DNA from: Phoenix dactylifera
Taxonomy: Eukaryota; Streptophyta; Magnoliopsida; Arecales; Arecaceae
Length of the DNA stretch: 64,000 nucleotides
Reading direction: 5' to 3'
NCBI RefSeq assembly: GCF_009389715.1
Contig: NC_052393.1
Location: 4,588,001 to 4,652,000, forward strand
Below, one piece after another: positions 1-60,746 of the stretch. The notes under the pieces were generated by a model. It saw only the letters and a list, made by a program, of their open reading frames with translations, had not been told where the DNA came from and did no database searches. The position numbers and the translations under genes are program-made. Within the stretch, counting starts at the first letter, position 1; the number at the start of each line of letters is the position of its first letter.

Positions 1-101
1 GAGAAATAAATCACAGAAGCTCTGCAACGAATCATGTTCTGCATCTGCTCATCCTTTTCTCTCTGTTTTCCAAGCATTGGATTCCACAGCTGGTTAACAA
101 C

Positions 102-335
102 CAGGGCCGGCCCAACTCTTAGATGCATGATTGAGGCGGTCGCATAAGGCCCTGGCCAAAGAAGGCCCACCATAGAAAAGGCCTCAAAGACAAAATAGAA
201 AGGAAAAAAACCTTCTTAGTGAGTTCGCTTTAGACCGGCCTACTATTGGAAAAGCCTCAAAGACAAAACGGAAAGAAAAAAAAAATGTCCCTCTTAGTGA
301 GTTCGCCTTAAGCCCCTAAATATATTGAGCCACTC
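102..335. mobile_element. Short insertion with hAT-like CAGGGCCGGC end
   Basis: This interrupts sequence that is continuous in the two other copies (about 6535-6570 and 27335-27365, the latter inverted). It begins CAGGGCCGGCCC, a terminus common to plant hAT-superfamily elements. It contains an internal direct repeat: CTCAAAGACAAAA... followed by CTTAGTGAGTTCGC at about 183-229 and again at about 256-312. No matching inverted terminus or clean target duplication is visible on the right, so it is probably truncated. Assignment to hAT is tentative. Confidence 0.4.
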
Positions 336-348
336 CTATCCATAACCA

Positions 349-594
349 TCAGACATGTCTGAGAACAATAAAATACAGAGAGTTTACACCATTGGACTGC
401 TCACAAGAAGCTCCGGAGGAGAAACGAGAAGCCAATCCTTGTGCCATATCCTTTGCATCAAAATTGACCTTTTTCCGTCCAGCTGCCAAATCCTTTTCAC
501 GATCCCAGGGTTTCCAAGGGTGTTTACCCTCCCATTCCTCTTTGTCCGGCTGTTTGGATTTCTTTCTCAGACTGCTTATTTCTCGGATTAGCAA
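349..594 (-). pseudogene. Fragment of J-domain gene last exon (inverted copy)
   Basis: The minus-strand translation contains KKSKQP.KEEWEGKHPWKPW and VNFDA.DM.QGL.SRFSSG, matching the C-terminus of the J-domain protein ending at 27292. Only the distal part of the last exon is present; similarity stops near 592, after EIS. Relative to the intact gene it lacks 13 nt after SSG, which removes the normal QRNFL end and lets the frame read on into former 3' UTR. With no promoter or upstream exons it is a non-functional duplication remnant. Confidence 0.85.
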
Positions 595-595
595 G

Positions 596-1620
596 TTGGG
601 TCAGATCGGCCTCATATATCAAGATTCATGATATCATCATTTGATAAGTCTGTTGTGTAACAATAATGAAAAAACATTGCTGATTGGGAACTTTTCTTGA
701 TAGACATTTCTTGCGGATGAGGAAGTTGGTTGATCATGGAGTTGCAGAAACAACAGTTCTAGGGCTTGATGAACTTTTGTTTCTAAAAAATTAGAAAAAA
801 ACTGGGATATAAAAAGCTAAACTGGCTTGAAAACAACACACTCTTGTATCTTTGTTGGAAAGCGTACTTTTTTTTCTTTGTTGTCTCAGAAAGCATGACT
901 GGCGAAAACTAGAGGAAGAGGTCCTGAAAATTTTCTTGTGCCAAGATCTAAATGGGGCCTATTTCTTGACCTTTTCCATGACAAAAATATACGACCTTAC
1001 TTAAACATGATCTGTTCTATTGGCATGTACATGGTAGAACAAAATAATATTACTTCAAGTGGTGCGCGGTTTGGATTTTTTTAATATGTATAGAGGTTGT
1101 TTAGTTGCCCGTAGGCTGCCTTCAAATATCAAAATCCATCATGCATGGCTAGTACTTCTAAAATTGAAACTTTGTTTTCTCTTCATAAAAAGGACTAAAC
1201 TACGCTCTTAGGGTTTATTTTGGTATTTTTGTTATTTTTGTCATTTGTTTTTCTGTAAGTTGATGTTGGATATAATATTTGCATGATCCTTGCTTTTATT
1301 TTCATATTTCTTGAACGAAATAAATGTTTCCAACTAAAAACTCTAAATATTTTTACAAACAATTTAAAAACCAAAAGGATTTCTGTCATGTATGCTTGTT
1401 CAGTCTAGTTTAAGTTTCCTTTTAGATTTTCTAAAGAACAATAAGAAAACAGAGGCAATACCAAAAAGCCCTTAAGCTCTTGTATAAATTATAATTTTTC
1501 TTTCATCTTTTTGGAAAACCATATTAACATTAACATGATGCAAACAAAGACATCTACTCCCTCAAGCCATCAATTTTTTATATTTTACTCCCTCAAGCCA
1601 TCATCCGCTTCTTAGAGATT
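596..1620. other. Intergenic stretch, inverted copy of 33660-34450
   Basis: No gene is seen. It is recognisable as the reverse complement of the expansin 3' flank; for example, the CATGATATCATCATTTGAT block near 628 matches around 34432-34450. About 30 bp between 595 and 628 belong to neither parent segment and look like junction filler. A tandem duplication of TACTCCCTCAAGCCATCA lies at about 1555-1603; the right arm has a single diverged copy near 33680. Confidence 0.7.
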
Positions 1621-2212
1621 TATGGCAATTTTCTAGAGCCCTTATAGCATAAAAACTTGTATATATGCGTTTTGAGAATGTTACCAGTGTGCTGATTGTT
1701 TTGCCAATCATGCTATAGACGAGGATAATGAGCATGACCCGCTTCCTTAGAGTCTTATGTAATTAATATAAGCTTATGTTGTTCAAGTTTTCTCTAATTA
1801 GTTACTAAACTTAGAATATAAAAATCATCTTAACTCCATATCTAAAAAGTGAAGACCAAATTGAGATGACAATCCGGAACAGAATGAGGCCGGATCCGGA
1901 CTTTGAGAAAGTAGCAGTTGGGGGCCCGAAATCAGGACCCGTCCTTAGCCAAAGGCAGGGTGTTTTGCTTAACTGGGGCCTGGCATTGATGCTTGTCTTA
2001 TATAGTCTTGTTCTGGGTTAAGCTAGGATTCGAAGTAACTCGACTGTATGAGCTTTCGGCCACGACCTAGAGGGGTGAAGAGGTGCTGTTGAGCCCGACC
2101 ATCCATTACATCATAATTTAGGATATGTTGATTTTATGGTGTATAAGCTAAGGTTCAACAGAAGTTTGTCACCAAATTCGAAAATAAAGCAGAAAGATTC
2201 AAAAATATAGGC
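1621..2212. other. Unassigned stretch specific to left arm
   Basis: No long reading frame and no match recognised. Its GC-richer core (about 1870-2100) has no counterpart in the right arm, where 32040-33650 is also unmatched. Either arm may hold an insertion here. Confidence 0.4.

Positions 2213-2279
<67 letters not shown>
2213..2279. repeat. (TA)n microsatellite
   Basis: A nearly perfect TA dinucleotide run of over 60 bp. The right arm at the equivalent place (about 31935-31945) has only a short ATATA, so this expansion is specific to the left copy. Confidence 0.95.
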
Positions 2280-2280
<1 letters not shown>

Positions 2281-2365
2281 TTATTTACTTACATTTTCTA
2301 CTATTTGCTGGCTACATTGTATGCAAGACATGTTGTTAAGGCCTGGCCCAAACTTTGGTGATTTA

Positions 2366-3085
2366 GGCCCTGTTTGGGGGAGCTGTTGGCAGTAGAGCTT
2401 TTGAAAGTAGGATTTTTATAAAAAGTCGTTTGCTGTTTAGTAACTACATTTCTAAAGTGCTGTCACTTTAACATATGTTTGGTAAACAAACTGAAAGAAC
2501 TTTTGGTATAACAAAATGACCACAAAAAATATTGCATAGTATTATACAATAGAGCATAATAAAATATAATATGTATCAATACATAAATATATAATATAGT
2601 ATAATATTACTGTAATATAATATAATATTATATACTATAGCATAATAATTTAATAAAATATTAAATTATTTAATATAACGTATCAATTCATTATGATATA
2701 ATGTAATATAATATTATATTTACAATATAATACAATAATAAAGATATAAAATATTATAATTATTAGCGTAAATTAATTTTTCATAATATAACAAATTTTC
2801 TAGCTATGTGATAAAATTGGTTAAACAATTATTAAAGGTATATTTTGTGTAATTGTTATATTTTATCACAGATATTTTGATTAAAAAATAGCTTCCTGAC
2901 TGGGCCTAAAAATGCTTTTCCGAAAAATTCGAAATGGAGCTTCTCCTAAAAAGCTATTTTTAGCTTTCTGAAAAGTTAAAACAGTTTTTCGAAATTTTTA
3001 CCAAACACCTCTATTTCATCTAAAAGTGCTTTTAGAGGGCAAGAAAGTTCTTTTTGGCCGTTCAAAAACTCTCCCAAATGGAGCC
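2366..3085. mobile_element. 720-bp MITE, PIF/Harbinger (Tourist-like), TTA target duplication
   Basis: The ends are imperfect inverted repeats: GGCCCTGTTTGGGGGAG at the left and, reverse-complemented, GGCTCCATTTGGGAGAG at the right. TTA lies directly outside both ends (2363-2365 and 3086-3088), the target preference of PIF/Harbinger elements. The interior is very AT-rich and non-coding. The right arm provides the empty site: GATTTAGTTTAGCC near 31870 (reverse complement) is uninterrupted, so insertion followed the duplication or affected only this copy. Confidence 0.85.
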
Positions 3086-3802
3086 TTAGTTTAATCATCC
3101 ACTATTTTTTACTCGACTCGGAGACCAGTCTAATCTTTTCAAAATGCATTTTGATGAATTCTAAATACATGTTGACCTCCAAGTGGATCGATTAAACTTG
3201 CTTTCATCATTAATTACTTTACTCTTCCTATGCAACAGTTCAAATATTGGTGCGATACGGTAATGAGGGTCTTGAGTATTATTTAGCAACTCGCCAACTT
3301 CTATACTAAGAAACGGGTGGATCTCTAACATTTATTGATCAATAAATGTACTATTCAAATCATAAAATGGTTTTGGGACAAGAGTGTTGAATTCTATAAC
3401 TGCACATCCCAGTAGCTAGATTTTGAACTCTTTTACTTAGGCCGGTGGGGCGCGCCTCATCAAATCTTTGCTTCTCCGGTAAGTGGTGGCGGGTCCACTG
3501 CAATAAAGCAGCACTTGACCGTCCTTTGCCCATCGATTCGCTCGCCGACCAAACAAACAAACCAATAGGGGAAAAAAAGAAGACCCATTCAAACCGTTCC
3601 TAAATTAGCGAGGCAGATAAATTGTATCTTCGAATTTATTTATAAACAAGAAAGAAATAAATTGTATTAATATTCCCCTATAAAAGCTGGCTGCTGATAA
3701 ATGCTAGGACGACAAAGTAGATGGGCATTAGCTGTAACGTTTTTATCATAACCAGGAGAACCGCAAGGTTTGTGGAAATATATAGGTGGGTGGAATTTTT
3801 CT

Positions 3803-3812
3803 GTATATATAG
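3803..3812 (+). promoter_or_regulatory. TATA box of left CAD-like gene
   Basis: TGTATATATAGG lies about 105 bp upstream of the chosen ATG at 3910. The equivalent in the right copy reads TGTATAAATAGG. The 5' leader after it is conserved between copies except for a deletion of roughly 25 bp in the left copy near 3880. Confidence 0.6.
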
Positions 3813-3909
3813 GCGAGAGCGTCAACCTTGAAAGAACACAAAGAGGGCCATACACAGAGTGCGCTTCTTATCGCCGGAGTTCTTCTTAGAAAAAGAGAGA
3901 GAAGTAGAG

Positions 3910-5667
3910 ATGACGGAGACGACGCCAAACCACACGCAGACAGTGGAAGGATGGGCGGCGATGGAATCGAACGGAAAGATAGCGCCTTTTGTCTTCAAGA
4001 GAAGGTATGATCTTGCCTGTTTCCGTTTAACTGCGTGCGTTCTTTGGTTCTGTTGTCCTCTAACATTGGTTAGACCGTCTGTAATGATTCGTACAATAAG
4101 TTATGTGACATGGTGTTCATGGTTAGGGAGAACGGGGAGGACGACGTGACCATAAAGATACTCTACTGCGGCATCTGCCACACTGATCTCCACCACGTCA
4201 AGGACGACTGGGGCATCACCAAGTACCCCGTTGTGCCTGGGTACTCTCTCTCTCTGTGTCTCTCATCTCATTATTGGCATCGTTTTTATTTTTAAATTTT
4301 TAAAATTTATTTATAAAAATCAAGAATAAAAATATATTTCTTATTTTTATCCTAGTTTTTGAATTACTGTTATCATTCAAGGAGCTTATGTTTTACTTCT
4401 ATATGAATCTATTTAATATGATCCCATGCTAGCTTGCTCACCTCTGGCGAATTAACCAGCTATCTGTGCTGACTCCTTGATTTTGTCAGGCATGAGATCA
4501 CCGGAGTGATCACCAAGGTGGGGAGCAACGCGACCAACTTTAAGGTGGGCGACCGGGTCGGAGTCGGTTGCCTGGCTGCGACCTGCCTCGAGTGCGAGTT
4601 CTGCAAAGCCTCCGAGGAGAACCACTGTGAAAAGGTCCAATTCACTTACAATGGTATCTTCTGGGACGGCAGCATCACCTATGGTGGCTATTCCAAAATG
4701 CTGGTGGCTGACAAGAGGTAAACTAGCTATCATAAATTTCTTCTTCCTTAGCTATATGCTCTGAAGGGATTCGGTGCTCTGAAGCTGGCATGGTTATTAT
4801 ATTGATGCTGACAACAAAAACTTCATATTTTGCGACATGATTCAAGATACGTCGTCCATGTCCCCGATAGCCTTCCAATGGATGCTGCAGCTCCCCTGCT
4901 CTGTGCGGGGATCACTGTGTTCAGCCCAATGAAATACTACAACATGTCCCAGCCCGGCAAGAAGCTCGGGGTGGTCGGCCTCGGAGGCCTTGGTCATGTG
5001 GCCATTAAGTTTGGGAAGGCCTTTGGACTTCATGTTACAGTCATCAGCACATCCCCCTCCAAGGAGAAGGAAGCCAAAGAAAGACTCGGTGCCGATGACT
5101 TCATTCTCAGTACCGATCCCGAAAGAATGAAGGTAACACGCAGAACTCTGTCTCAGTTTTTCCTCTTCTTGAAGCAGACTATATATACGTAAGCTCAGAA
5201 GAAGTCCTTAATCGGCATGGCATCAGAGTGGGGCGAGGAGCCTGGATTACATCATTGACACCGTAGCTGCGAAGCACTCCCTTGGGCCAATCCTGGAGCT
5301 GCTCACGGTGCGTGGTACCTTGGTCTTAGTCGGAGCTCCTGATAAACCGGTGGATCTTCCTTCCTTCCCATTGATTTTTGGTGAGGAACTGAACTTAACA
5401 AACTTCCATGGTTGGTTTCTGTTTCCTACTTATCTCTTAAGCATCCCATATGTATGTGGTTTTATAGGCAAGAGGAACGTGGCTGGAAGCATGATCGGAG
5501 GCATGAAAGAGACGCAGGAGATGATGGACTTCTGTGGGAAGCACAACATCACCTGCGACATCGAGCTTGTGAAACCAGATCACATCAATGAGGCGCTGGA
5601 TAGGCTTGCGAGGAACGACGTTCGTTACCGATTCGTGATTGATATAGATGCTAGTTCTGATCACTAG
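3910..5667 (+). CDS. CAD-like zinc-dependent alcohol dehydrogenase (left copy)
   Basis: Six exons: 3910-4004, 4127-4240, 4490-4717, 4847-5132, 5227-5410, 5468-5667, all with GT/AG introns, joining in frame to 368 aa, the usual family length. Seen: catalytic-zinc motif [10 protein letters not shown] (Cys46), GHE at 70-72, four structural-zinc cysteines (102, 105, 108, 116), Rossmann loop GLGGLG (190-195) followed by VISTSPS, and the C-terminal [10 protein letters not shown]. The family (cinnamyl alcohol dehydrogenase/mannitol dehydrogenase group) reduces aldehydes with NADPH in the cytosol. The sequence looks like a class II CAD-like member rather than the main lignin CAD, so the substrate is open. 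The start [11 protein letters not shown] is the first in-frame ATG. It differs at 12 residues from its partner at 28293-31005, including Lys/Met and Val/Ile at the end of exon 2 and Thr/Lys in exon 5. Confidence 0.92.
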
Positions 5668-6605
5668 TCTCTTCGTATCAAGCTTGGTAGCGATATGATC
5701 ACTCAGATGATTACTTGGAGTCGGTGCCTTCGTTCTTTATGCTTTATGTGATTTATGCTGGCTGTTTCCGACTTGGACCAGCATATCCGAAGAAATGAAA
5801 TAATCAGGTTATTAGGACCTGTCATTCCCCACCTAATTGAATTGGGCTTGCGTGGCTTAAAACAGTACTTGTGTCGGGTTAAGGTTTACATCTTATACCC
5901 GATAGGTTCAGGGAAAAAAATTTCGAGCTTGCTCGGTACCCTGCACACGCACAAGAAGGAAAACTAATTGCGAATCCTCACCAAGGAATGGGCTCTCCAA
6001 CCTACTTAACTAAAATCCGTGTGAATCCAAAGCGCTCAATCTCTGTCAAATAATGGTTTGATGCATCCACGATGGAAGCATTATATACTTCGCTATTTTT
6101 CAGCTGCAGCTGATCCTCTACGTTGTGACCTTCCCAGGTCTAAGATCATGCATACCAAACGCAACACTTTGGATATTCTAAAATATCCAAAATGTTTATA
6201 GATAAAATTTTGAATATTCTAAAAATATATTATCGACAGGATGATGTTAATAATCAAGGCATAGCTCAGGCATTCCCTCTAACTAAAACGCATAATTGGG
6301 CATTCAAATATTCATTATAATGCACAATAATGTAAATACCTAAAAATATGATTGATTTATTCTTGGAGACTTAGATGCCTATGCCTATGTAAATCAGGCT
6401 TTGAGCAGGCCATGCTACGTGGTGTCTGACTGATCTGTTCACATGGAGAAATAAATCACAGAAGCTCCGCAATGAATCATGTTCTGCATCTGCTCATACT
6501 TCTCTCTCCCTTTTCCAAGCGTTAAATTCCGCGGCTGGTTAGCAGGCAACTCGGGCAGCCATCAGATATGTCTGAGAACAATAAAATATAGAGAATTTAA
6601 GCTGA
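5668..6605. other. 3' flank of left CAD copy
   Basis: No gene. It is the inverted counterpart of 27310-28290. Similarity stops at about 6600, in sequence equivalent to just after the J-domain gene's stop codon (AGAACAATAAAATA block). Confidence 0.8.
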
Positions 6606-8150
6606 TAGGATAAAATAGATTTATTTTTATATTTTATATTTTATTACAGTTCAAGCCCATTTAGTTTTGGTCTATATTAAATGGCTATGCTTTTAGTTTT
6701 CCTAATTTTGGAGCCATTTATGCTACAACTTATCTTGTCTTTTAGTTCTGAGCTATTGGTCAATTGATCAATAGCTCAAATATTGAATAATTTATTGAAA
6801 TATATAATCAATATAGATATAAATATTTAAAATGTTTATATTATATATTCCTCCATGAAGTTTGAGGGAACTTGACTGGACTTGATCCGATATGCTATCA
6901 GGTCGAGACTGGTTGACCCATGCCCAACTTGCAAATTTGATGGGTTTGTGTAAATGCATCAGGTTAGAAATTGCCCTTAATTTTGAAACCACCAAAGCAT
7001 CTGGAAAAGTTAAAATCGAATCAAATTGACTTTGGACGTCCAATTATGGACTGGCAGATAGGCCTTACATTCAAACAACTTACATAATCAGCATGACGTA
7101 GAGAAGAAAAAAAAATTCTTTACTTTTATTGAGTTCTTTTTTTTTTCTTTCCCTTGGATAAGAATTGATTTTCACAAGCGACTGAACAAGATTTCTTAAT
7201 TGTTCGGATCCACACTGAAAAATATATGAGTGCATTTGCTAGATTCAAAATTCTCTGCATGATTTTAATTACCCAGATAAACTTGCCTTTTTTGTATCTG
7301 ATATAGGGAACAAGAACATTCAAGCTACGCCAAACACTAAAAAAAGGCTATGGAATAGTATTCGAAAAAGTCCAAAAAGTGGACTTATTATGACGATTCT
7401 ATTCAGCCAAAGTTGCAGAATAGAATTATTCCACGAATTAGAAGGTACTACTTATACTTCCAATTATAAATTTGTTCCACGAAAAGAAATTTTTATTCTT
7501 AGAATAAATCCAACTGACACATTTACTTATTTCTTCATTTATTCCTCTAATCAAATATATAAAAGATACTTATTTCATTGAACGGACTTTTCATCGCTCT
7601 TGAAAAAGAATCTACCAATTCTCTCCCGGTCTCTCGTGTCACAGTCGTGATCTTTCACTGTTCCGGGACATCAGCAGAAGATTGGGAGAAACAATACAAG
7701 CTACAAAAGAAGGGGAAAAAAAAGAGGCACGGTATTCTTGATACGGCCACCTCTACCGGTGGGACTGGTCGTCGTGCAGAGATGGGAAAATCCGAGGGTA
7801 TTCCCCCTGCCTCGCGAGCCCCCTTGCTCTTCTCCTCCACTATTATCATCCAAGAGTTGAAATTAAATTGAATATTGGCATATCCATATCTATTTTTGTT
7901 TTGTTTGACGAATATAAATATGGAAACGGATGTTAATCGGATGCAAAAATTCATATCTATATTTGTTTTAAACGGATACAAATACAAATTGGATACCAAA
8001 AATATAAATATAAATATGAACATAAATATGGATATAAATAAGAAACTTTATGATCATAGAATCAAAAATATTATTAAGTGGATGATAAATCAAGCTAATG
8101 ACATGTTAATATGGTTATATTTTTTTCTTTGTTTTGACAAAATGGTGAAT
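6606..8150. other. Unassigned AT-rich intergenic stretch
   Basis: No convincing gene. At 7390-7581 a 63-codon frame exists with no recognised family. At about 7870-8045 there is a low-complexity run built from ATAAATATGGATAT-like words. I recognise no element boundary. Confidence 0.4.
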
Positions 8151-8154
8151 CATG

Positions 8155-11740: not shown

Positions 11741-11781
11741 TCTTATTTATTTTTTTTTCCGTTTATATTTCTATTTCGTTT

Positions 11782-11790
11782 CCACGTGTC
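11782..11790 (+). promoter_or_regulatory. G-box (CCACGTGTC) upstream of J-domain gene
   Basis: A CACGTG core with ABRE-like flanks sits about 220 bp upstream of the ATG at 12012, between the LINE relic and the gene. G-boxes bind bZIP and bHLH factors in plants; function here is inference from the motif alone. Confidence 0.45.
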
Positions 11791-12011
11791 ATGTCTGATG
11801 TCTCCCAGTCGTCTCAAGACAACATCAACAGCTCCTCTTGTGTAACGGAGGCCCGCTTGATAGTCGTACGACCATTCCGGCCAGGCCTGGTCCGGCTCTC
11901 GTGAGTCGTGGCCCGGCCCGTAATCTATGAGGCGTGATGCCCAGCCAGCCACCGCCTCAGGCCTCGTCTTGTTAAAAGAAACGGAAGACGGCGTGTAGAG
12001 GGCGAGAAGAG

Positions 12012-15000: not shown

Positions 15001-15221
15001 ATCCCCAATTCCCTGTAGAAGAAGGTGATATCATTTTGTTTCTTTCAATGGTCCTATTTCAATAATGCAAAAATTTGCTTCTCTGTCAGGATAACTTTAT
15101 TTTGTCCTGTCACATTTGTAGTCTGAACTTAGTATCATTTCTGTGTGTGTACCTTGTGAAGTACAATTTTGATTGCGTTGCTCCTATATTGTGAACACTA
15201 TGGTATATATTTATTTTCTGA

Positions 15222-15275
<54 letters not shown>

Positions 15276-21200: not shown

Positions 21201-24200
21201 ATAGATCTGTTTTCATAGGTACTGGAAGTTATCTCTAATGGTGCATCCAGACAAATGCTCCCATCCACAGGCACACCAAGCATTTGTGATATTGAACCAA
21301 GCTTTCAAAGATTTACAAGATCCTGACAAGGTTTGACTTGTTATACTATGCTACATAGTTATGCGAAGAGCTAGTATAAGCTTTTGACTTCCTTTCAGTT
21401 TTGAAATTTTGTTTAGAAAGGCCGCTGCACCAACTTTATCAATTAATGCAAATGACTTCTTAAGTGATATTTTTTGTTAGAGACTTAAAACATAATAAAG
21501 TGTTATAGTTTTATATTTGAGATAACAAATTAGTTTATCAGAAAGGTGGAAACATATAAGAAGCTTCTGTCAAAACAAAATTTGAGAATATAAATATCAT
21601 TTTATCATGGCAGCTGTCCTAGAGCTTCTCACATCATAGTATGCATATTGTCAAGATATACACATCTGGACAGGCCCTGACATTTCTGTCATTTTATTTT
21701 TATGGATAAAAAACCAATATCCAGTCAAGTTCATGCCTGAGTCTTGGCTTACGATGGTTGAAGTGATCGAACTAATCTGATAGGGGAAGGGAATAGCCTG
21801 AATAAGTATAATAGACTAGTAATAGGTCATAATTCTGATATTGCTTCGTGCAACAATATATGGACTAGACGGTACATATTTTGCAAAATACAGCTATACG
21901 TAGTGGATTATAAACTGTGTGCCTGCCTAGTAGGTATTAGAAGGTTAGCATTCACAAGCTGAAGCAATTATGCATGTGGTCATAATTGTTTGATGAAGTG
22001 GTAGTCAATACCAATATACTTTTCGGTCCAGTTGAAAGTCTATTATTAGCTTTTTGATTAGCATCCCATTCATCTCAATAGGAAGGAGTAGAGAGTAGGT
22101 AATCTGAGAGAGAACTTGGGTAATGATAGCAATGTTTATAAAATGAGCCATTGTGTCACACAAAACCTCCATTTGTGGTTAGAAACACTCCCTATTCTTT
22201 TAGGAGAGGAAAATATCCACCAGCAGAGCATAAATTGGGTAGACCAGCCTATGCAGCATTAGAAGGCTGAGGCTGGCTGGATGGTGGAAATGAGAGAGCA
22301 GTGATGGGCCCCTTAATGGGAAATGTGAAACAATGACGATAAAGAATGTGCAAAATGCTCTATTTTGAATGGAACAGATGAATACTAACGAATAGGCTTG
22401 CAACATTAGCATGCAACCACAGACCATCCAATGACTCTTGTTTTTTTGTAGAATCCTACTAGGTTTTTCCATTGGTAAGATAATATTTCATATTTAGGTC
22501 CCAGTAGGGTTTTGGTATAGCTTGCATCTGATAGACATGCATATATTTAAGTATTATTTGTTTCGATAACAATTTTGTCTATGAAAAATTTAACTTCAAG
22601 CTCCAAGAAGTAGAAAAGATCTACATTATTTTTTCCAAACTAACATAAGAGTTTTTACTTTATAATTCAGATTGAGAGGGTGGAAGCATGTTCACTGTGA
22701 TTATGTATTTACAAAGTTTATGGTCAAAACCTCATGAGTCCTAGAACATCTCAATAGTAGCTCTGTGAAGCTGAGCTTAAAGACTCTCGAATGGAATTGC
22801 TTAAATGAGAAAAATGCTACTTGGATGAGGTTACTGGTCCATATCCAATGATAAGTATAAAGTGCTCTGTTACTATCTTGTGTGCAGCTTCATGGTGTGC
22901 CAAAATTCGTGAGTGCAACCACCTGGTCATCCTGTTTACAGATCTAGGTCTGGTTAGAAAAATTTCAAAATCATTAGAATTAAATTTCTGCAAAGTTTTG
23001 TTTGGGTATATAGATCGGGTTCTTCTGCTTTCTTTTCTTTTATGTTTATCATCTCCCTCTGTGGATGTGTATGTGTGCATGCGCATGCACACTTTTGTGT
23101 GTTTTTCAGTCTTTCTAGGAAATAGATGGTAGACCTTAAAGTTGCAGTGTTACTTCTTTTTCTTCTTGGGAGAAGTGATTCACGTTTTTGACTTGCTAAT
23201 TTAGGACAAGTGGTTGTTTCTTTTATATGCTTTTCCTGTGAACTACAAAACACTCATATTGGCTTATATAATTGATTATCTATTAGTAAAATATATTAGT
23301 GACCCCTGCACCTTAAATATATCCCTTCCTTACATATTGAATTCTCCTGAAGATGATCTCAGGTTCAACAGAAAAACTCCATCTAATTGAGTTTAGCTGC
23401 TAGGTAGTATAACAAATTTTGAGAAGATTTCTAGCAAATTTAGTTTTATCAAACCTTACAACGTCCTCTGTACTAAAGCTTCATATTGTTTGATTATCCT
23501 GCATAAGTGTTCAATTCTTGTTACCCTCGATGCTTTCATGCATTGAATTGTGATGCGTGAACTTGTCCTTGTTATCCTAATGCGTACTATCTTTAGATAG
23601 TTTGTTCGAGAAGCTTGGTTTGACATGTTAGTTAGTTCTTTTTTTTGTCATTGAGATTTTTTTTGATGATTTAGTTTCTAGTTAATTTTCTGCTACCTGT
23701 TTTACAGAGAAAAGCTTTGGATGAGAAAATTAAACTTAAAGAAGAACAAGAGGAGTTCAAGGTAAGATTTCTTGTGTCTAGATGCCTCCTTGGTCTACTC
23801 TCACTTAAATTGCTGATTTAGTTGAAATTCTGAATTGCTCTGCCTTTCCAAACAGCCAAGTGGAGGTTCCTTTGTTCAAATCTATTCTTAGATTTCATTG
23901 GACACATTTAACAGAAGTACCTTTGGACAATTCAGCATTCTGTTGCATGGTTATGAAGTCAATTATCAAATGCAATGTCTGTCTGAATTGAATAAATTTT
24001 ACATCATCTAATATTTACAATATCTTGTAATAAATCTTGTTATTTTTATCTTTTTCTTTCCTAACCAATTTTTTTTTTATTAATGTAGATTGAGTTGCAG
24101 GCACTTTGTGAAGCTGCACAATGGAGACGATCACAAGGTTAGCTATTTTATACTTGATAATCAGAATATAGCAACATAAATATTCTAATAATTTCATTTA

Positions 24201-27200
24201 GAATATTATCTTTCAATTTGATTGTGCTAAACATAAATGTTGATTTTTAAGATTGAACATTGGAAGGCTGATGTCTTTATCAAACAGGCAATATTAAATA
24301 TGCATTAACAAGATTAAAAATTTTAAGCAGTCAATGAAAATGTTGGGCGAGAGAGATGATACAAGAGATGAGGATTGTTAGGAACATATCTGTGGTAGAA
24401 CTTTATCAATAGGTAATAAATGGTACAGTTTGGGAAATCTAGATAAGATTAAAATTTTTAAGTAGTCAATGAAAATGTTGGGCGAGAAAGAGATGATACA
24501 AAAGATGAGGATTGTTAGAAGCATACGAGGAGGCATATCTTGTTAGCTGCCCATCTCGGGTTTATGTTGAAGTGTCAGAAAAGAGGAAGATCACTTTTAC
24601 TGACTAGGATAAATGTCACAGGATATGTCATTATGTGTTAATAGAAATGTAGCCTCTATTAGAAATTCCCTAGGTATATGTACACATGCTGTCCTATATA
24701 ACAAAACGAGAGAGGGAATATGCTGAAAAGATTCCATCTGCCAAAATCTGTTGAGAAAAATGCTATTAAATTAATGAATAAGACTTACTAGAAGATAATC
24801 TTATAAGGGTGTAGAGGGTATGAAGGGAACTTGCACAATTATGATGCACATGTATTTTTATTTTTTTAGAAAACTTTGTTCTAATCTGAGAGTCTGACCG
24901 AACTTCCACATAACCTCATCTATAAACAAACTCAAGCATCCGTCCAATTTTAAAAAAATTAACAATAAAGATCCATTTTAGATAATAATAAGAAACCACT
25001 TAGGGGGAAACAAGACTCAAACATTTGTGGAAATCAAAATTTTAAGGGAAGATATGTTTTATTCTTATGATCTTATTTTTATTTATTATTATTTTAATGT
25101 GCAGTGCACTTGCTTGGTTGCTAGTGTGTGTATATATCAAGAGAGAGCCAAAGAGAGAACATTGTTGAGTGCATTTTCATTTTGGAACATTAAGGGTCAA
25201 ACACTCTCAGAAGCACTCTAACACTCTCTGATAGGTGAGGGGGAGAGTACATCAAATGCTAAATGTTAAATTATTGGTGAATAACTTAATCATTCAGACA
25301 ATCCAAATTGGAGATGCACACAATTGATCATGGTCTACGCTGCTGGAGAAGTGCCTCTGATCTATGCATCAAGTGGATGCAATAATGGACATTAACAATT
25401 GTGGTAATGTACTAACACACATAATAGGGCACGATTCATATAAGAAGATCTCCTTGTGTTTGAATTTTAAATATGTTTCATTGTAGAATATATCCTATTG
25501 ATTGATGCTAATAAACATGATATTTTAGTATGCTTATTGGGTACTAGAAAACATCATCATTTGGTTCCCAAAAGAAGGTAATTTGCTAGTCTTTTTCTTA
25601 AAACAAATGTTTGAATAGAAAAAGATAAACAGAACCTTGGAGCGTCATGAACTTCCATATGGCGCACTAACTCAAGGTTGTATCATGTTGGTAGGTATAT
25701 CTATTGAGGGTGATGAGGAACTTCTTGCAATCCCTAAAGAGGCTCCAAAAAGAGAGGAGTGGATGACAACATTACCACCTGAAAGGAAGGTAAGCAGCCA
25801 GTCCCCTGCTTGTCTTTATATTTCTTTTCAACTCAGTCAGCTGCAAGAATGAATAATCTTAATTATTTCAGTCAGCTGCAAGAATGAATAATCTTAATTA
25901 TTTCTTTCTTTTGTAGCCAGGAATGACTATGCAGTCAACATCATTTAGTAGGACAAGTAAAGAAGGACGAGGAGATACTAGCATTTGGACTGACAGCCCT
26001 CTTGACAAAGCAGACAAAGCAAAGCAAAAGTATGAATTCACAATCTTGTACATATCCACTGATTCGGTATACTCGAAATACACCTTTGGTACAAAATTGA
26101 CGATCTCACAAAGATGAAATATCAGTAGTTTTCCATTTACTGATCCCATCTTTCACGGAATCGATTTCTTTTTTGTTTTGAATGTACAAAAATTTGCTAT
26201 GTTTGTGCTTAATGCTAGGTTGTGGTTTATGCAGCCCTTAGGACATGATATGGGACTGAAACTAATCTGTAACAATAATGATTGTTGATAAAAAAGTGCA
26301 ATAGGATATGAGATCTGTAAAATATATTGCCATTTTTTTTAAAAAAAATAATTAACCAGGTGAATACTATGAACCTATGGTTTCTCAGTAACATCATTCT
26401 TTGCATCATTTTCCGCATGTCTAGTTCTCCTGGTTGCCCCATGAATTACCCTGCTTTGTCCTATGTTGCACCTGCCTGTGCAAGCAGGTCCTACCTGCTA
26501 TTACTGGATACATTCAACCGACAAGGTGTGACCAAATAAGCACATAAATGTTCTACCTTCTGCAATCAATGATGTTACTTCAGATCAGCTAGTCCATTTA
26601 CTGGCTTCATCATCAGTAGACTTAGTGGACAATGTAACCATGCAAAATTTTTGAAATCCTCCATTTGGTGCACTTGAATGCTGGTGTAAAAAATTTTTAT
26701 CCAACCAAGAGTTGGATGATTTTGGTACTTTTTATTTGCAGTTATCCGAGGCAAACAATATGCCTTTTCTCAGTCTATTATGTACTTTTCACCAATAATG
26801 TTATTCATTCTGCTTGCATATCTTTTCTGGATTTAGAACTTCAAGGCAAAGAATATGCGTTTGCTCAGTCTACTGTCTAGTTTTCACTAATGTTGTTATT
26901 CGTTCTGCATGCACATCTTTTCTGGATTTAGAGTAGTAACTTGGTACTTTTACTGCAGTTATCTAGAGGCTTACAACAGAACCAAAGCACTTGCTGACGC
27001 AGATGACCAAAAGAGAGGAGCAATTTCAGATGCTGAGCTAGTTGACAAATTTAACTCTTCCAAGCGCAAGAAATCTCTTGTGCAAAAGCATACAGAAGAA
27101 ATAAGTAATCCGAGAAAGAAATCCAAACAGCCGGAGAAAGAGGAATGGGAGGGTAAACACCCTTGGAAACCCTGGGATCGTGAAAAGGATTTGGTAGCTG

Positions 27201-27292
27201 GACGGCAAAAGGTCAATTTTGATGCGGAGGATATGGTGCAAGGATTGACTTCTCGTTTCTCCTCCGGAACTTACCAGAGAAACTTCTTGTGA
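12012..27292 (+). CDS. Arg/Ser-rich J-domain protein with DUF3752/GPALPP-type C-terminus
   Basis: Eleven exons: 12012-12422, 14687-15024, 17795-17872, 18136-18238, 18611-18699, 21219-21330, 23708-23761, 24089-24137, 25695-25789, 25917-26029, 26959-27292; all GT/AG and in phase, giving 591 aa. Residues 1-115 are rich in Arg, Ser and Lys (RS/RK runs), as in nuclear speckle and splicing proteins. The J domain is about 320-385: KPYDVLG, then the HPD triad at 349-351 in LMVHPDKC, and helix IV around QAFKDLQDP. A charged stretch (KIKLKEEQEEF) follows, then EEWMTTLPPER near 426-442 and a Lys-rich tail with HPWKPWDREKD, typical of the GPALPP1/DUF3752 family. The HPD triad predicts stimulation of an Hsp70. 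A nuclear, splicing-related co-chaperone role (compare human DNAJC8) is inference. Its last exon was copied into the left arm. It spans 15 kb because of long introns carrying repeats. Confidence 0.9.
12423..14686 (+). other. J-domain gene intron 1
   Basis: A 2.3-kb intron with consensus ends and no recognised element or RNA gene. Confidence 0.7.
15227..15272. repeat. (CT)n microsatellite
   Basis: An almost pure CT run in intron 2 of the J-domain gene. Confidence 0.95.
17472..17606 (+). repeat. Direct repeat in J-domain gene intron 2
   Basis: Two copies of about 65-70 bp, each containing TTGGTCATGT, AATAATCTAC, AAATGTTTAGG and TCAAAATACATTT, lie next to each other. They look like a local tandem duplication. 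Confidence 0.75.
19224..19800. repeat. Dispersed repeat beginning GGGTGGCAATTGG
   Basis: Starts AAGGGTGGCAATTGGTTGGGGTTGGGACC and is rich in GGGT/ACCC words such as AACCCAATTAC and CAGGTTGG. A similar-style sequence, reverse-complemented, ends GATTACCACCCCTAA near 30075 inside the right CAD intron. Plant genomes carry many such non-autonomous repeats; I cannot name the family or fix the ends. Confidence 0.45.
19918..20185. repeat. GGTACGGTACG-type monocot repeat
   Basis: A cluster of related words: GGTTCGGTACGGTACGATAC, GGTACGTCTCGG, CCGGTACATACC, GGCGGTATACC, CGGTACGGTACAG. Such interspersed GGTAC-rich repeats are common in palms and bananas as I recall; the identity of the element is unknown. 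Confidence 0.55.
21331..23707 (+). other. J-domain gene intron 6
   Basis: A 2.4-kb intron with short purine/pyrimidine-rich and GTGTATGTGTGCATGC-type runs near 23060. No gene or element recognised. Confidence 0.7.
24138..25694 (+). other. J-domain gene intron 8
   Basis: A 1.56-kb intron after the codons for RRSQ. It includes an 80-bp direct repeat (listed separately); nothing else recognised. Confidence 0.7.
24311..24526 (+). repeat. Direct repeat pair in J-domain gene intron 8
   Basis: About 80 bp at 24311-24390 recurs at 24445-24526. Both carry GATTAAAA, TCAATGAAAATGTTGGGCGA, GATGATACAA and GATGAGGATTGTTAG. Spacing is about 135 bp, consistent with a tandem duplication of a roughly 135-bp unit whose remainder has diverged. 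Confidence 0.85.
25834..25903 (+). repeat. 35-bp tandem duplication just before exon 10 acceptor
   Basis: Two exact-looking 35-bp units (CAGTCAGCTGCAAGAATGAA...) sit at 25834-25868 and 25869-25903. The exon 10 acceptor is at 25916/25917, so the duplicated block covers the likely branch-point zone (TCTTAAT). Confidence 0.9.
26729..26958 (+). repeat. Duplicated block including a decoy splice acceptor before exon 11
   Basis: TTGGTACTTTT-TTGCAG plus TTAT.C.GAGGC, the acceptor and first bases of exon 11, occurs at about 26722-26752 and again at the true site (26940-26969). Between them, about 90 bp (GGCAAA.AATATGC...TTTCTGGATTTAGA) is present twice (about 26750-26837 and 26846-26932). Using the decoy AG at 26740-26741 keeps the entry frame but reaches a stop at 26878-26880, so it would remove the C-terminal domain. 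Confidence 0.85.
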
Positions 27293-28292
27293 GCAGTCCG
27301 GTAGTGTAAACTCTCTGTATTTTATTGTTCTCAGACATGTCTGATGGTTACCGGAGTTGCCGGCTGACTAGCTGTGGAATCCAATGCTTGGAAAAGGGAG
27401 AGAAAAGGATGAGCAGATGCAGAATGGAGCTTCGGTGATTTGTTTCTCTATATGAACAGATCTGTGATGCCGAACCTGTTCGTTTGCCCTTTCCCATTGT
27501 TTGGTCTGCCGTCATATCAGTCAGACACCATGTAACATGGCCTGCTCAAAGCCTGATTTACATCGGCATGGGCATAGGCATAGGCATCTAAGTCTCCAAG
27601 AATAAATCAATCATATTGTTAAGTATTTACATTATTGTGCGTTATAATGAATATTTGAATGCCCAATTATGCGTTTTGGTTAGAGGGAATGCCTGAGCTA
27701 TGCCTTGATTATTAGTATTATCCTGTTGATAATATATTTTTAGAATATTCCAAATTTTATCTGTAAACATTTTGGATATTTTAGAATATCCAAAGTGTTG
27801 TGCTCGGTATGCATAATCTTAGACCTGGGAAGGTCACAACGTAGAGGATCAACTGCACCTGAACAATAGCGAAGTATATAATGCTTCCATCGTGGATGCG
27901 TCACACCATTATTTGACAGAGATTGAGCGCTTTGGATACACGCATTTTAGTTATGTAGTTGGAGAGCCCATTCCTTGGTAAGGATTCGCAACTAGTTTCC
28001 CTTCTTGTGCGTGTGCAGGGTACTGAGCAAGCCCGAAAATTTTTCCCGGGACCTGTCGGGTATAAGATGTAAATCTGAACCCGACCCAATTACTGTTTAT
28101 AAGTCAATGCAGGCCCAATTCAATTAGGGGGGGAATGTCAGGTCCTAAAAGCCTGATTATTTCATTTCTTCGGATTAGCTGGTTCAAGTCGGAAATTGCC
28201 AGCATAAATCACATCAAGCATAAAACACGAAGCCACCGACTCCAATTAATCATCTGAGTGATCATATGGCTACCAAGCTTGATACGAAGAGA
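27293..28292. other. Intergenic region between J-domain gene and right CAD-like gene
   Basis: About 1 kb with the two 3' ends facing each other. No other gene. The sequence is shared with 5668-6605 in inverted orientation, and its first 160 bp also with 1-360. Confidence 0.8.
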
Positions 28293-30608
28293 CTAGTGAT
28301 CAGAACTAGCATCTATATCAATCACGAACCGGTAACGAACATCGTTTCTCGCAAGCCTATCCAGAGCCTCATTGATGTGATCTGGTTTCACAAGCTCGAT
28401 GTCGCAGGTGATGTTGTGCTTCCCACAGAAGTCCATCATCTCCTGCGTCTCTTTCATGCCTCCGATCATGCTTCCAGCCACGTTCCTCTTGCCTATAAAA
28501 CCACATACATATGGGATGCTTAAGAGATAAGTAGGAAACAGAAACCAACCATGGAGGTTTGTTAGGTTTAGTTCCTCACCAAAAAACAATGGGAAGGAAG
28601 GAAGATCCAACGGTTTATCAGGCGCTCCGACTAAGACCAAGGTACCACGCACCTTGAGCAGCTCCAGGATTGGCCCAAGGGAGTGCTTCGCAGCTACCGT
28701 GTCAATGATGTAGTCCAGGCTCCTCTTCCCACTCTGCTGCCATGCCGATTAAGGACTTCTTCTGAGCTTACATATATATAGTCTGCTTCAAGAAGAGGAA
28801 AAACTGAAACAGAGTTCTGCATGTTACCTCCATTCTTTCGGGATCGGTGCTGAGAATGAAGTCATCGGCACCGAGTCTTTCTTTGGCTTCCTTCTCCTTG
28901 GAGGGGGATGTGCTGATGACTGTAACATGAAGTCCAAAGGCCTTCCCAAACTTAATGGCCACATGACCAAGGCCTCCAAGGCCGACCACCCCGAGCTTCT
29001 TGCCGGGCTGGGACATGTTGTAGTATTTCATTGGGCTGAACACAGTGATCCCCGCACATAGCAGGGGAGCTGCCGCATCCAGTGGAAGGCTATCGGGGAC
29101 ATGGACGACGTACCTTGGAATCAGTCACAAAATATGAAGTTTTTGCTGTCAGCAGCATCAATATAATAACCATGCCAGCTTCAGAGCACCGAATCCCTTC
29201 AGAGCATATAGCTAGGGGGAAGAAATTTAAGATAGCTAGGTTACCTCTTGTCAGCCACCAGCATTTTGGAATAGCCACCATAGGTGATGCTGCCGTCCCA
29301 GAAGATACCATTGTAAGTGAACTGGACCTTGTCGCAGTAGTTCTCCTCGGAGGCTTTGCAGAACTCGCACTCGAGGCAGGTCGCAGCCAGGCAACCGACT
29401 CCGACCCGGTCGCCCACCTTAAAGTTGGTCGCGTTGCTCCCCACCTTGGTGATCACTCCGGTGATCTCATGCCTGACATAATTAAGTAGTCAGCACAGAT
29501 TGCTGGTTAATTCGCCAGAGGTAAGCAAGATAGCATGGGATCATATTAAATGGATTCAGATAGAAGTATATGAGATGGACGGGGGCTTAAAGCTACAGTT
29601 TGTATGTCTACTGGTGCCGGTTAAAGTTGATAGAACATCTTTATCAAATGGGTCGGATTCAAATTTAGACCTTTCACCCATCTAACCTGTTTTGATCTAT
29701 TTAATAATTGGGTTGGATCCAATTATTAACTTTGCTAATTTATTAACATGATCCAACTCATTTGACCTATTTAAAACTTATTTAATCTGTTCAAAACCTG
29801 CTAAACATATTTTTATATTATTTAACTCAACCTGCTTAACCTATTTAAATATTATTTTAATCTATTAATGACCTACTTAACTTGTTTAACTTGATTTGTT
29901 TAATAAACAAATTGTTTGGGTTACATTGAGTTACCTGTTTAATAAATAGGTCAGATTTAGATCTAAAAGTTTGGCTTGTTTGGCAAACAGTACAGTTTAG
30001 CTTAATGAATTTTTGACCGAAGCCATATCCAATCTGACCTGTATCCGACGTGATCTGAACCGATTACCACCCCTAATTAATAGAAGAAAGTAATGAAATA
30101 ATAAATATAGGGTAAACCTAACATAGTAGGGTTATGCCACAATATTGTGGCTCTTGTCCCATTGAACGCATCCACCACGTAAAATATATTTCACTTTCGT
30201 CCTTTGGCCTTTAATTTCAACCAAGGCCCACAGAATTTTGTTGGCAGCAGTGATAATGAATGGATGTGGCTGTATTGATAACATCGGCTAGGAAAGGGAA
30301 GTAAAATTAAAGGCTGTAGTCACATATTGGTGATAATGAAGAGATGCCAATTATATATGGTGGAAGTTGTGAGGATGATGACTGTTATAGTAGCCACAAA
30401 AATAGTAGCCACCATGGTGGTGGTGATGATAGAGATGACTACATTAGCAGCGGCCAAAGTGACTACGTTGATGGTTGAGATGATAACTATTTTAGTAGTA
30501 AAACATAAGTTCCTTAAATAATACAAGAAATTCAAAAACTAAAAAATTAAAATAAAAACAAAAATATTTTTATTCTTGATTTTTATAAATAAATTTAAAA
30601 TTTTAGAC

Positions 30609-30671
<63 letters not shown>

Positions 30672-31005
30672 TACCCGGGCACAATGGGGTACATGGTGAT
30701 GCCCCAGTCGTCCTTGACGTGGTGGAGATCAGTGTGGCAGATGCCGCAGTAGAGTATCTTTATGGTCACGTCGTCCTCCCCGTTCTCCCTAACCATGAAC
30801 ACCATGTCACGCAACTTATTGAACAAATCATTACTGACGGTCTAACCAACGTTAGAGAACAACAGAACCTAAGAACGCACACAGTTAAATGGAAACAGAC
30901 AAGACCATACCTTCTCTTGAAGACAAAAGGCGCTATCTTCCCGTTCGAGTCCATCGCCGCCCATCCTTCCACCGTCTGCGTGTGGTTTGGCGTCGTCTCC
31001 GTCAT
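28293..31005 (-). CDS. CAD-like zinc-dependent alcohol dehydrogenase (right copy)
   Basis: Six exons on the minus strand: 31005-30911, 30788-30675, 29472-29245, 29113-28828, 28733-28550, 28492-28293, joining to 368 aa. All zinc ligands and the GLGGLG nucleotide loop match the left copy, so both are predicted catalytically competent NADPH-dependent aldehyde reductases of the CAD/mannitol dehydrogenase group. Exon lengths are identical to the left gene (95, 114, 228, 286, 184, 200 bp). Intron 2 is 1202 bp against 249 bp at left because of an insertion and a longer GA run. Twelve residue differences: E19D, K/M and V/I in exon 2, H/Y and E/D in exon 3, M/L and K/E in exon 4, A/K, T/K, V/L, I/F and F/L in exon 5; exon 6 is identical at protein level. 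The in vivo substrate is not predictable from this. Confidence 0.92.
29575..30505. mobile_element. About 0.93-kb insertion in intron 2 of right CAD copy
   Basis: Comparing the copies, left intron 2 runs straight through CTTATGTTTTACTTCTATATG, while the right copy (reverse complement) splits between TTTTACT and ACTTCTATCTG. The insert holds an AACCC/GGGTT-style repeat (about 29620-30080, with ACCACCCCTAA near 30070) and a GATGATGACTG/GGTGGTGGTGATG-like segment (about 30350-30480). A short ACT/TACT repeat lies at the junctions; no clear terminal inverted repeats, so class is unknown. Confidence 0.65.
30609..30669. repeat. (GA)n microsatellite at intron 2 donor of right CAD copy
   Basis: About 60 bp of GA sits a few bases inside the intron 2 donor (minus strand reads GTAACC(TC)n). 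The left copy has only about 20 bp (4243-4265), so the tract length differs between paralogues. Confidence 0.95.
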
Positions 31006-31124
31006 CTCTACTTCTCTCTCTTTTTCTAAGAACAACTCCTCTCCCAAAAGATGCCTAGCCAGGCGATAAGAAGCGCACTCCGTGTATGGCCCTCTCCGTG
31101 TTCTTTTAGAGCTGATGCTCTCTC

Positions 31125-31134
31125 CTATTTATAC
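31125..31134 (-). promoter_or_regulatory. TATA box of right CAD-like gene
   Basis: The minus strand reads TGTATAAATAGGAG about 125 bp upstream of the ATG at 31005. The context matches the left promoter, but this copy keeps about 25 bp in the leader (CTAGGCATCTTTTGGGAG region) that the left lacks. Confidence 0.6.
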
Positions 31135-31324
31135 AGAAAAAATCCACCTACCTCCATCTCCTGGTTATAATAAACATATGGTACCAACTACAATGTCCAG
31201 GGGGGCCCGTCTACTTTGTTTTCGTTCTTCCCAAGTGGAATATTAATTTAGTTTATTGCTTTTTTATTTCTATATTCTGAAAATTTAATTTATCTGCCTC
31301 TCTAATTTAAGAATATTCTTAACG

Positions 31325-31450
31325 TGTCTTTGCTTTTTTTTATTATTATTATTATTTTTTTTTAGTATAATGATTGCTCACGCTACTCTAGCGTGGACAA
31401 AACTAGTAAAATCAAAAAAAAAAAGTCAATTCTAAAAATTGGAGAAACAA
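31325..31450 (-). mobile_element. LINE 3' tail, extremely 5'-truncated
   Basis: A T-rich run (31330-31362) is followed by AGTATAATGATTGCTCACGC...ACTAGTAAAATC(A)n. The same signature (GATACAATGACCGCTCACAC...CAGTAGAATC(A)n) starts the LINE fragment at about 56668. Only the extreme 3' end of the element is present on the minus strand. It is absent from the left arm, so it was inserted after duplication. Confidence 0.65.
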
Positions 31451-32030
31451 CCTCTTGGTCAAGCGAAATGATGGGCAACGGACAAGTATATTTCTATTCA
31501 ACGGTCACTCGTTCCTACCGGAGGAAAGAGCCATGCGAGACACGCTACATCGCATGAGAAGATTATGGGTTCAATTTGGCCGGAGGCGACAACATGGTGG
31601 AGCTCACGAGAAGGAAAGATCTGACGAGCCCGTACGGATGGCGCGCCCCACCGTCCCAAGTAAAAGATTTCAAAATCTAGCTACAGGGATGTGCAGTTAT
31701 AGAATTCAACACACCTTTTTATCATTTGAATAGTAAATTTATTGATCAATAAATGTTAGAGATAACTGCATCTTAACATAGAAGTTGGTGAGTTGCTAAA
31801 TAAACCATATTTCGAGGTCAACATGTATTTAGAATTCATCAGGAGTCGAGTTAAAAATAGTAGATGGCTAAACTAAATCAGCAAAGTCTAGGCTAGGCTA
31901 TGACCACAAATAGTAGAAAATATAAGTAAATAAGTATATAAAAATTGTATTTTTAATCTTGCTATTTTATTTCCGAGTTTGGTAATCCAATCTCGGCGAA
32001 CTTATGATGAACTTGCTGGATTTTGTTTTT
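31451..32030. other. Upstream region of right CAD copy shared with left arm
   Basis: No gene. Matches 2280-2360 and 3090-3590 inverted (for example TTTATTGATCAATAAATGT and GGCGCGCCCCACC). It provides the empty site for the left-arm MITE. Confidence 0.7.
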
Positions 32031-33655
32031 TTTCAAATTCTAAATTTTAACCCTAGCGGATTGTTCCACTTGCGAGTATGGTGGCAAATTGGTAATCTAA
32101 TCAGAAAGTAAATTAACCAAGCCAACTGGCTTGAGTCCCAACCTACCATATTCCTTAAATAAAGTACAGAATAGAGTCCTTTTCATTTCCATAAAAAAAA
32201 CAAAAACTATATTTCTGAAAGCAAAACTAGTATATTAAAATATATAAAATTAATTAAAGGAAAGGTGCATTCCCCCTTGATCTGATCCTCTGATAGGGAA
32301 CCCACTATATTTCTCACAAAACAAACTATTAAATTAAAAATAGTTGTAGTCCCCCCTGACTAGACGCAATATGAACAAGCAAGACAGGAGGGGGTCCGGT
32401 TTCTTTCCACGTAAATGCCCTTGCAGAACTGGTCTAAAGTGCAAGTTTCACGAGGAATGCAATCCAAATGCCTGCAGAGTCCTACGAAATTGCTGTTTCT
32501 TGACCATGAATCCAAGATGACCCCCAAACTTCTGAGAGAGACAAACAGAGCCACTCCTTTTATTCCTGCAGAAGTCTGCATGAGGCCACAGGAACGGGTC
32601 ACCAGGTGGAGCTGTAGCTGCCTCATATTCTCCAAAGAATTGCCTGGAAAAATCTCTAGGGAGTCCGTTTTGGCTCTATCTAGAGAAGGGGAATAGAGAA
32701 TCCAAGGTCCATGAAGTGCTGCTAGATAGAAGATGGTCAGCTTCTACGAGTACGCAAGGGAAGAGTAAACCAGTACCTTTCATGGAGGACTGACTTCACG
32801 AATGAACTCGAACGACCATACTTACAGGCTTGGTGTGTGTATGCTCTGTACCATGACCAGACCTGGATTCGAGGTCATTGCGACCAAGTATGAGAGGGTT
32901 GACGCGGACCAGAATAATTCTACTCAAGACTAGATGGGTGAGACCAGAGAGTGACATCAGGCTAGCTTGGGGGGGAGGCCATGGGTTTCAAGGTTTGCGC
33001 CGGATGCCGCAAATTCACTGTTCTTCCGAACAGTGAGAACTATATATCATCTCGCACATAACCTCACCAAGCGTTTTTACTAGGAGTGAGAAGTTATAAT
33101 TTTTTTAAAATTTATGAATAGAAAATGTATAGATATATTGACATGAGTAAATAAATATTTTTAAATTAATTATACATGTATTAGAAAATATATTTATTAT
33201 TATCAATAAATTTCAGTATGTTTTAGTATGTAAATAAATATATTAATTACTAATAAATCCTATGTTAGATTTATTTATAATTAATAAATATTTGTCAATT
33301 ATTTTATTAATAATTTATATTTATTTATAATATTACTAATATATTAAATATCTTATTATTTGTAGATATTTATTAATTATTATATTAGTAATATATTTAT
33401 ATAATTATTAATGTAATTAATATGATATAATTGAGGGTATTTTTGTCAAGAAATAATATTTTTAGATTACCTCCACTTAATAATTCGGCATAGAAAATAA
33501 ATACCCACCTCCTTAATAGTATTTATTTTACATTCTCTATCAGGAAAATAGACACAAGACCCATCTTTTTTTTTACCACCATTCTCATCCACTTTTGTTC
33601 CAAACATCGTAATTTAATATGAAATTTATTTTTTTTATACTAGATTGTCTCTAAC
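32031..33655. other. Right-arm-specific stretch, unassigned
   Basis: About 1.6 kb with no counterpart in the left arm. 32270-33060 is of mixed composition with no recognisable protein; 33090-33450 is very AT-rich (TATTAATTATTATATTAG words). Possibly one or more insertions; no terminal repeats found by eye. Confidence 0.45.
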
Positions 33656-34702
33656 CAAGTGGGTCCTAAGCAACAGATGATGGCTCGAGGAAGTAGATTT
33701 GTTTCCTTCCATCTTGTTAATGTTAATATAGTTTTCCAAAAAGATGACAAAAAATATATAATTTATAAAAGAGCTTAGGGGCTTTTTGGTATTGCCATTG
33801 TTTTTTTCATTGTTTTTGAGAAAATCTAGATGGAAACTTAAAATAGACTGAACAAATACGTATGATGGAAATTCTTTTGGGTTTTAAATTATTTATAACA
33901 ATATTTACAGCTTTTACCAACAAACATTTATTTCTTTCGAGAAATATGAAAATAAAAGCAAGGCATACAGATATTAATATCCAACGTCAACTTACACAGA
34001 AACAAATGACAAATATAATAAAAATAGCAAAATAAACCTAAAAGTGTGGTTTAGTCCTCTATGAGGTGAAAGTAAGCTTCTATTTTAGCAGTACCTGTGA
34101 TGGCATGATGCATTTTAATATTTGAAACCAAGCAGCCTCTATGCATATTTAAAAATTCTGGATTGTTATATAATAGCAATTTCCCAAATTATATGCACCA
34201 CTGAGAGAAATAATCTATTCTATCATGACTTTATGTAAAAGGTGAAGAAAGAGGCCCCATTCAGATCATAGCACGAGGAAATTTTTTTAGAAAATGCAAA
34301 AGTTTATCAAGCCTCGGAACTGATGATTCTGCAACTCCATAATTAACCAACTCCCTCATGTATAAGAAATGTCCATCAAGAAAATTTTCTAGTCAGCAAT
34401 ATTTTTTCTATTATCGTTATACAACAGACTCATCAAATGATGATATCATGAAAAGGATTTCACATCGATAAAGATAACTATCAGTGGAGCACATTAGAAC
34501 AACCGCATGTTCATGAACATCCGCTTCTTTGATCTTTTCATCGAATGAATTTTATGCCATCCATCTTCATACCCTAGTAGTCGGCTGAAGATTTGGTCCT
34601 TTCTTCGATCGCATAAGAAAATAATTGGGTGGCGGGCTACTCTAACAAAATTATAAGCATGCCTCTGCCAACCTAGATCTTGAAACTTGCATCCCTGACC
34701 TT

Positions 34703-36778: not shown

Positions 36779-36938
36779 ACTCACAGTTCCTCCTAGGGAT
36801 GGGCACTGGGCCGGGCCGCCCACGGCCCGGCACGGCACGGCACGAAGCGGGCCGTGCCACTCACAGTTCCTTCTAGAGATGGGCACTGGGCCGGGCCGCC
36901 CACGGCCCGGCACGGCACGGCACGAAGCGGGCCGTGCC
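36779..36938. repeat. 80-bp tandem duplication of hAT left end plus flanking DNA
   Basis: ACTCACAGTTCCTCCTAGGG at 36779 recurs as ACTCACAGTTCCTTCTAGAG exactly 80 bp later, followed in each case by ATGGGCACTGGGCCGGGCCG and the same GC-rich run. The unit contains the target duplication, so the true element end is present twice. The outer 8-mer (GTTCCTCC) matches the right-hand duplication exactly; the inner one (GTTCCTTC) has one change. Confidence 0.9.
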
Positions 36939-40215: not shown

Positions 40216-40267
40216 ACCTCTAGTTCCTCCGCCGCAATACCAGTGAGACATACTTGGGCCATCCACT

Positions 40268-60745: not shown

Positions 60746-60746
60746 A

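Follow-up and report, generated by a model that had tools for sequence, protein, structure and literature searches.

In rice, the four CAD genes OsCAD8A-D stand in succession at a single locus, an arrangement that the report describing them attributes to inverted duplications, and the same report gives a six-exon CAD pattern for both eudicots and monocots (PMC2662859). In Arabidopsis halleri, the coding parts of the HMA4 triplet are described as having been homogenised through ectopic gene conversion (PMC3749932). Here we describe a CAD-like locus of the date palm, Phoenix dactylifera, in a 64,000-nucleotide stretch of DNA (the window; NC_052393.1, positions 4588001-4652000, on the contig we call C2) and the DNA adjacent to it, compared against a genome of 773 Mb in 2391 contigs; all comparisons of the CAD units were made within this one genome. 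The locus consists of three units, A and B in tandem and R inverted, and with three CAD copies in about 43 kb it falls among clustered, inverted arrangements of the OsCAD8 type. As described for OsCAD8A-D (PMC2662859), these are adjacent CAD genes of a monocot with an inversion among them, although rice has four genes and the palm three, and the likeness is one of arrangement only. As described for HMA4 (PMC3749932), there are three copies with apparently homogenised coding parts; however, the HMA4 copies are in tandem and were studied with population data, whereas in the palm set, known from a single genome, one copy is inverted and lies beyond a 20-kb spacer. Among the papers listed in literature searches there was no account of this palm cluster, which is not proof that none exists. 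The triplet is another case of known processes, a fairly ordinary gene-family expansion that leaves the general understanding of gene families unchanged; its value lies in correcting the copy number and gene models of a crop palm's CAD-like locus, and in a small natural case of inverted duplicates whose gene bodies and upstream DNA appear to differ in history.

Self-comparison of the window showed that the inverted duplication of the original prediction was real, but that its two-arm picture had missed a third unit. The five longest inverted matches linked 343-6599 to 27097-34452 at 83-91% identity (E-values from 0 to 7e-47), namely 4394-6599 with 29568-27307 (91.3%), 3784-4401 with 31153-30493 (83.8%), 1121-1572 with 34126-33678 (83.2%), 625-790 with 34452-34283 (84.7%) and 343-583 with 27350-27097 (89.0%). 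The left side had been read as one rearranged copy of the right; it is indeed inverted relative to R, but the break in collinearity near 600 proved to be the tandem junction of A and B, since 343-583 and 625-790 match opposite ends of R, which is the pattern expected where two right-hand units meet head to tail. On these grounds a third CAD gene was predicted to the left of the window, and it was then found there: a genome search with 27100-29100 returned a third copy with 91% identity at C2:4582891-4584502, oriented as the left copy is, and a search of the adjacent DNA with 26001-36000 showed unit A to match R over window coordinates -8134 to 583. Unit A, on the forward strand, thus has its right end at 1-585, and its remainder, including CAD-A, continues past the left edge of the window as far as about -8173 (about C2:4579827), a start set by reading the sequence, where the string is the same as the one that opens unit B near 586. 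Unit B (586-6599, start approximate, forward strand) is head to tail with A, collinear, and inverted relative to R, and unit R occupies 27097-34452 on the reverse strand. The opening 40 bp of both A and B, which in B precede 625, have no counterpart in R, and the search with 26001-36000 revealed no additional unit between window coordinates -40 kb and +74 kb. A piece of B at 3279-3456 matches 31803-31640 of R (84%), and the search found none in A. Within unit A, an insert of 3.4 kb (about -3480 to -42), flanked on both sides by CATGG as judged by eye and containing an internal 213-column repeat, parts CAD-A from the clipped J-domain tail described below.

Along the DNA the order is A(+), B(+), a J-domain gene(+), R(-) and an expansin gene(-). 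A Pfam scan, which found families in 6 of 10 pieces, agreed with the earlier claim that the 20-kb spacer carries a J-domain gene; we place this gene at about 11976-27289 (forward strand, approximate extent, first exon by eye), with DnaJ at 21205-21333 and DUF3752 at 26891-27289. The DUF3752 domain sits on the last coding exon, which ends at 27289, and the R boundary at 27097 lies inside that exon. Unit A holds a clipped copy of this exon's tail at 343-583 (reverse strand), and unit B ends at the position corresponding to R 27307, a little before the exon, and has no J-domain tail. At its other end, 34452, unit R stops about 250 bp from the stop of the expansin gene (34703-36013, reverse strand, gene start not modelled; DPBB_1 and Expansin_C).

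The two CAD genes in the window are intact and point toward each other, as had been claimed. CAD-B (3910-5667, forward strand) has exons 3910-4004, 4127-4240, 4490-4717, 4847-5132, 5227-5380 and 5468-5667, and CAD-R (28293-31005, reverse strand) has exons 31005-30911, 30788-30675, 29472-29245, 29113-28828, 28733-28580 and 28492-28293, so the six exons of the two genes do have identical lengths (95, 114, 228, 286, 154 and 200 nt, with the stop counted in the sixth). The proteins are 358 residues long and not 368, and they differ at 11 residues and not 12. CAD-A, outside the window, has an open frame of 357 residues. Intron 5 (5381-5467 in CAD-B; 28493-28579 in CAD-R) is 87 nt long and has no in-frame stop in any of the three copies; its retention would insert 29 extra residues.

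All three proteins have ADH_N and ADH_zinc_N domains (PF08240 and PF00107) above cut-off, and all three have Cys49, His71, Glu72 and Cys165 as well as Cys102, Cys105, Cys108 and Cys116, which we take to be the catalytic and structural zinc ligands. Cys97 is replaced by Phe in A alone of the three, and the paralogues on contigs C8 and C11 also have no Cys there. The closest solved structure is a sinapyl alcohol dehydrogenase (PDB 1yqd, residues 7-353, E-value 1.5e-149). As given in the source, the marker sites of bona fide CADs are Trp119 and Phe298 (PMC3734214). Among six palm loci, only that on C11 has Trp and Phe at these sites. A, B and R have Phe121 and Met301, positions in their own numbering that presumably correspond to Trp119 and Phe298. 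By sequence, A, B and R are CAD-like (SAD-like) medium-chain zinc alcohol dehydrogenases, and all three are predicted to be functional dehydrogenases of this class and not bona fide lignin CADs. Elsewhere in the genome, contig C1 carries two blocks, at 5.03-5.06 Mb and 5.16-5.19 Mb, which are separated by about 129 kb and have two CAD-like genes each. The 3-kb pieces that were compared are 99.8-99.9% identical, and the blocks may be alleles that the assembly kept or the product of a very recent duplication.

The proposal that both copies in the window are constrained held for B and R as a pair (Ks 0.072, dN/dS 0.20, bootstrap 95% 0.09-0.46), but not significantly for R by itself. Pairs that include A had higher ratios, 0.39 (0.22-0.66) for A-B at a Ks of 0.113 and 0.49 (0.31-0.88) for A-R at a Ks of 0.099. 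Synonymous and nonsynonymous changes by branch were 15 and 31 for A, 9 and 4 for B, and 6 and 8 for R, and the departure from neutrality was significant for B (p=0.0005) and not for R (p=0.11). Judged from these counts B is under purifying selection, and R probably is too. Residues odd in one copy numbered 28 in A, 4 in B and 7 in R, with one gap (A against B, p=2e-5; A against R, p=5e-4). In a comparison with six further palm CAD loci, whose rows are raw search alignments that run past exon edges in places, 18 of the 28 in A appeared to be derived in A, five resembled changes shared by B and R, and five were ambiguous; 2 of the 4 in B appeared derived, and the seven in R divided into three apparently derived, three shared by A and B, and one ambiguous. 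The CAD-A protein is, on this comparison, changing faster, for which relaxed constraint and new function are alike possible; when A was tested against B and R combined, its share of nonsynonymous changes was not significant (p=0.08), which counts against the history we favour below. So do the residues held in common against the other palm CADs (five for B=R, three for A=B, none for A=R), and shared-derived residues judged against the same six loci gave no clear sister pair.

The three units do not tell one history along their length. We counted shared site patterns in columns that were gap-free in all three copies, leaving out R 31364-33674, most of which aligns at about 40-50%; this stretch contains the piece shared by B and R, which counts against our favoured reading. 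In the order A=B, A=R and B=R, the counts were 104, 30 and 27 of 753 columns in the far 5' flank, 48, 13 and 13 of 227 in the near 5' flank, 6, 14 and 7 of 373 from the 5'UTR to exon 2, 26, 4 and 2 of 128 in part of intron 2, 26, 21 and 46 of 1263 from the end of intron 2 to exon 6, and 35, 33 and 30 of 848 in the 3' flank. The patterns of the far 5' and 3' flanks differ (Fisher p=7e-6): upstream, A and B are sisters, and downstream the three copies are equidistant. The Jukes-Cantor distance between A and B changes little (0.098 upstream, 0.081 downstream), whereas that from R to A or B falls from 0.219-0.224 upstream to 0.083-0.087 downstream. With dispersed repeats removed the signal of the far 5' flank was weaker (34, 14 and 10 of 329, p=0.007), and far and near 5' flanks together gave 82, 27 and 23 of 556 (p=1e-4). 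In a permutation scan of 412 non-coding informative sites, which ignores linkage among neighbouring sites, the best-break value was reached in none of 2000 shuffles; the best break fell in intron 2 (B 4378/4384) and not at the gene start, which again counts against our favoured reading. In the flanks, compared among the three units alone, the contrast in topology with the gene body is clear, if weaker without the repeats. The discordance between upstream and downstream patterns suggests that gene conversion took place among the copies in the past. Methylation-driven decay upstream of R was not supported, transitions in the two directions being 46 and 45, and a candidate tract shared by A and R at exon 1 and intron 1 (of 164 non-coding columns, 11 with A=R, 3 with A=B and 2 with B=R) was set aside as too small.

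We think it probable that the locus arose by the local expansion of a CAD-like gene to three copies, in which R was the source, A and B formed in tandem, the body of R was homogenised, and A has been changing fast. A segment that includes the J-domain gene's tail and CAD-R and reaches DNA close to the expansin gene would have been copied inversely onto the opposite side of the J-domain gene, and this inverse copy would then have been duplicated head to tail to give A and B, the junction of which is seen in the sequence. Around the time of that duplication, R would have been converted toward the A/B type over its gene body and 3' flank, and its upstream DNA would have kept the older divergence. 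R is the likely source on the simplest reading, because A holds a clipped piece of the J-domain last exon and the R boundary at 27097 lies within that exon; the absence of a J-domain tail from B counts against this account.

Conversion between inverted copies appears to explain the mosaic best, and second to it stands the idea of a chimeric R, with upstream DNA from an older CAD unit since lost and a gene body of the A/B type, brought together by crossing over in an array. We regard this as unlikely, although it would leave site patterns identical to those expected for conversion, and several breaks are possible, intron 2 retaining the 26 against 4 and 2 of 128 given above; no remnant of a fourth unit is present in the interval searched between -40 kb and +74 kb or among the matches listed in two genome searches. 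That A and B were the originals and R the derived copy is improbable, given that the J-domain last exon is complete at R and just a clipped piece in A. The 20-kb spacer between inverted arms had also raised the idea that the arms act as a switch for the orientation of the J-domain gene. Between B and R there are 11 stretches of 40 bp or more that match exactly, the longest of 190 bp, and given these a flip through the B and R arms is physically possible; the arms also seem to have swapped DNA. A single B-R inversion exchange was nevertheless rejected as the source of the mosaic, as it would make A and R sisters downstream, where the patterns are balanced (35, 33 and 30), and with no inverted allele seen in the one genome we give such a switch very little credence. 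It is likewise a long shot that the inverted copies are still exchanging across the 20-kb spacer, which would keep the enzymes alike as the promoters diverge, with the J-domain inversion polymorphic among date palms. As little credence as to the switch goes to the idea that one arm is the other haplotype placed inversely by the assembly: allelic-looking copies are retained elsewhere in it and 9753 haplotigs are given in its published description (PMC6794320), but an artefact is unlikely, as there are no Ns in 114 kb, the published read N50 of 18.5 kb exceeds the 6-9 kb units (PMC6794320), the three units have ends unlike one another, and divergence among them in the 3' flank is 8.1-8.7%, against about 2% or less by substitutions for allelic-looking pairs (99.8-99.9% identical in two pairs, 98.0% in a third and 95.65% in a fourth, which has gaps at 119 of 3540 positions and so differs by about 1% in substitutions; allele status inferred).

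Some minor features lie around and beyond the right-hand boundary of R. The 3' end of the expansin gene and its flank (34145-34755) are present as a 0.6-kb copy on a different chromosome, at C8:15571193-15571806 (88.8%), and the 30 kb of DNA compared there gave no CAD or DUF3752 matches. A hAT-type transposase frame of 561 codons with Pfam hAT domains lies at 37506-39188 on the reverse strand, with repeats on either side (about 36810-37170 and 39920-40220), and farther along the window a direct repeat of about 0.4 kb joins 48394-48797 and 60744-61147 at 89% identity.
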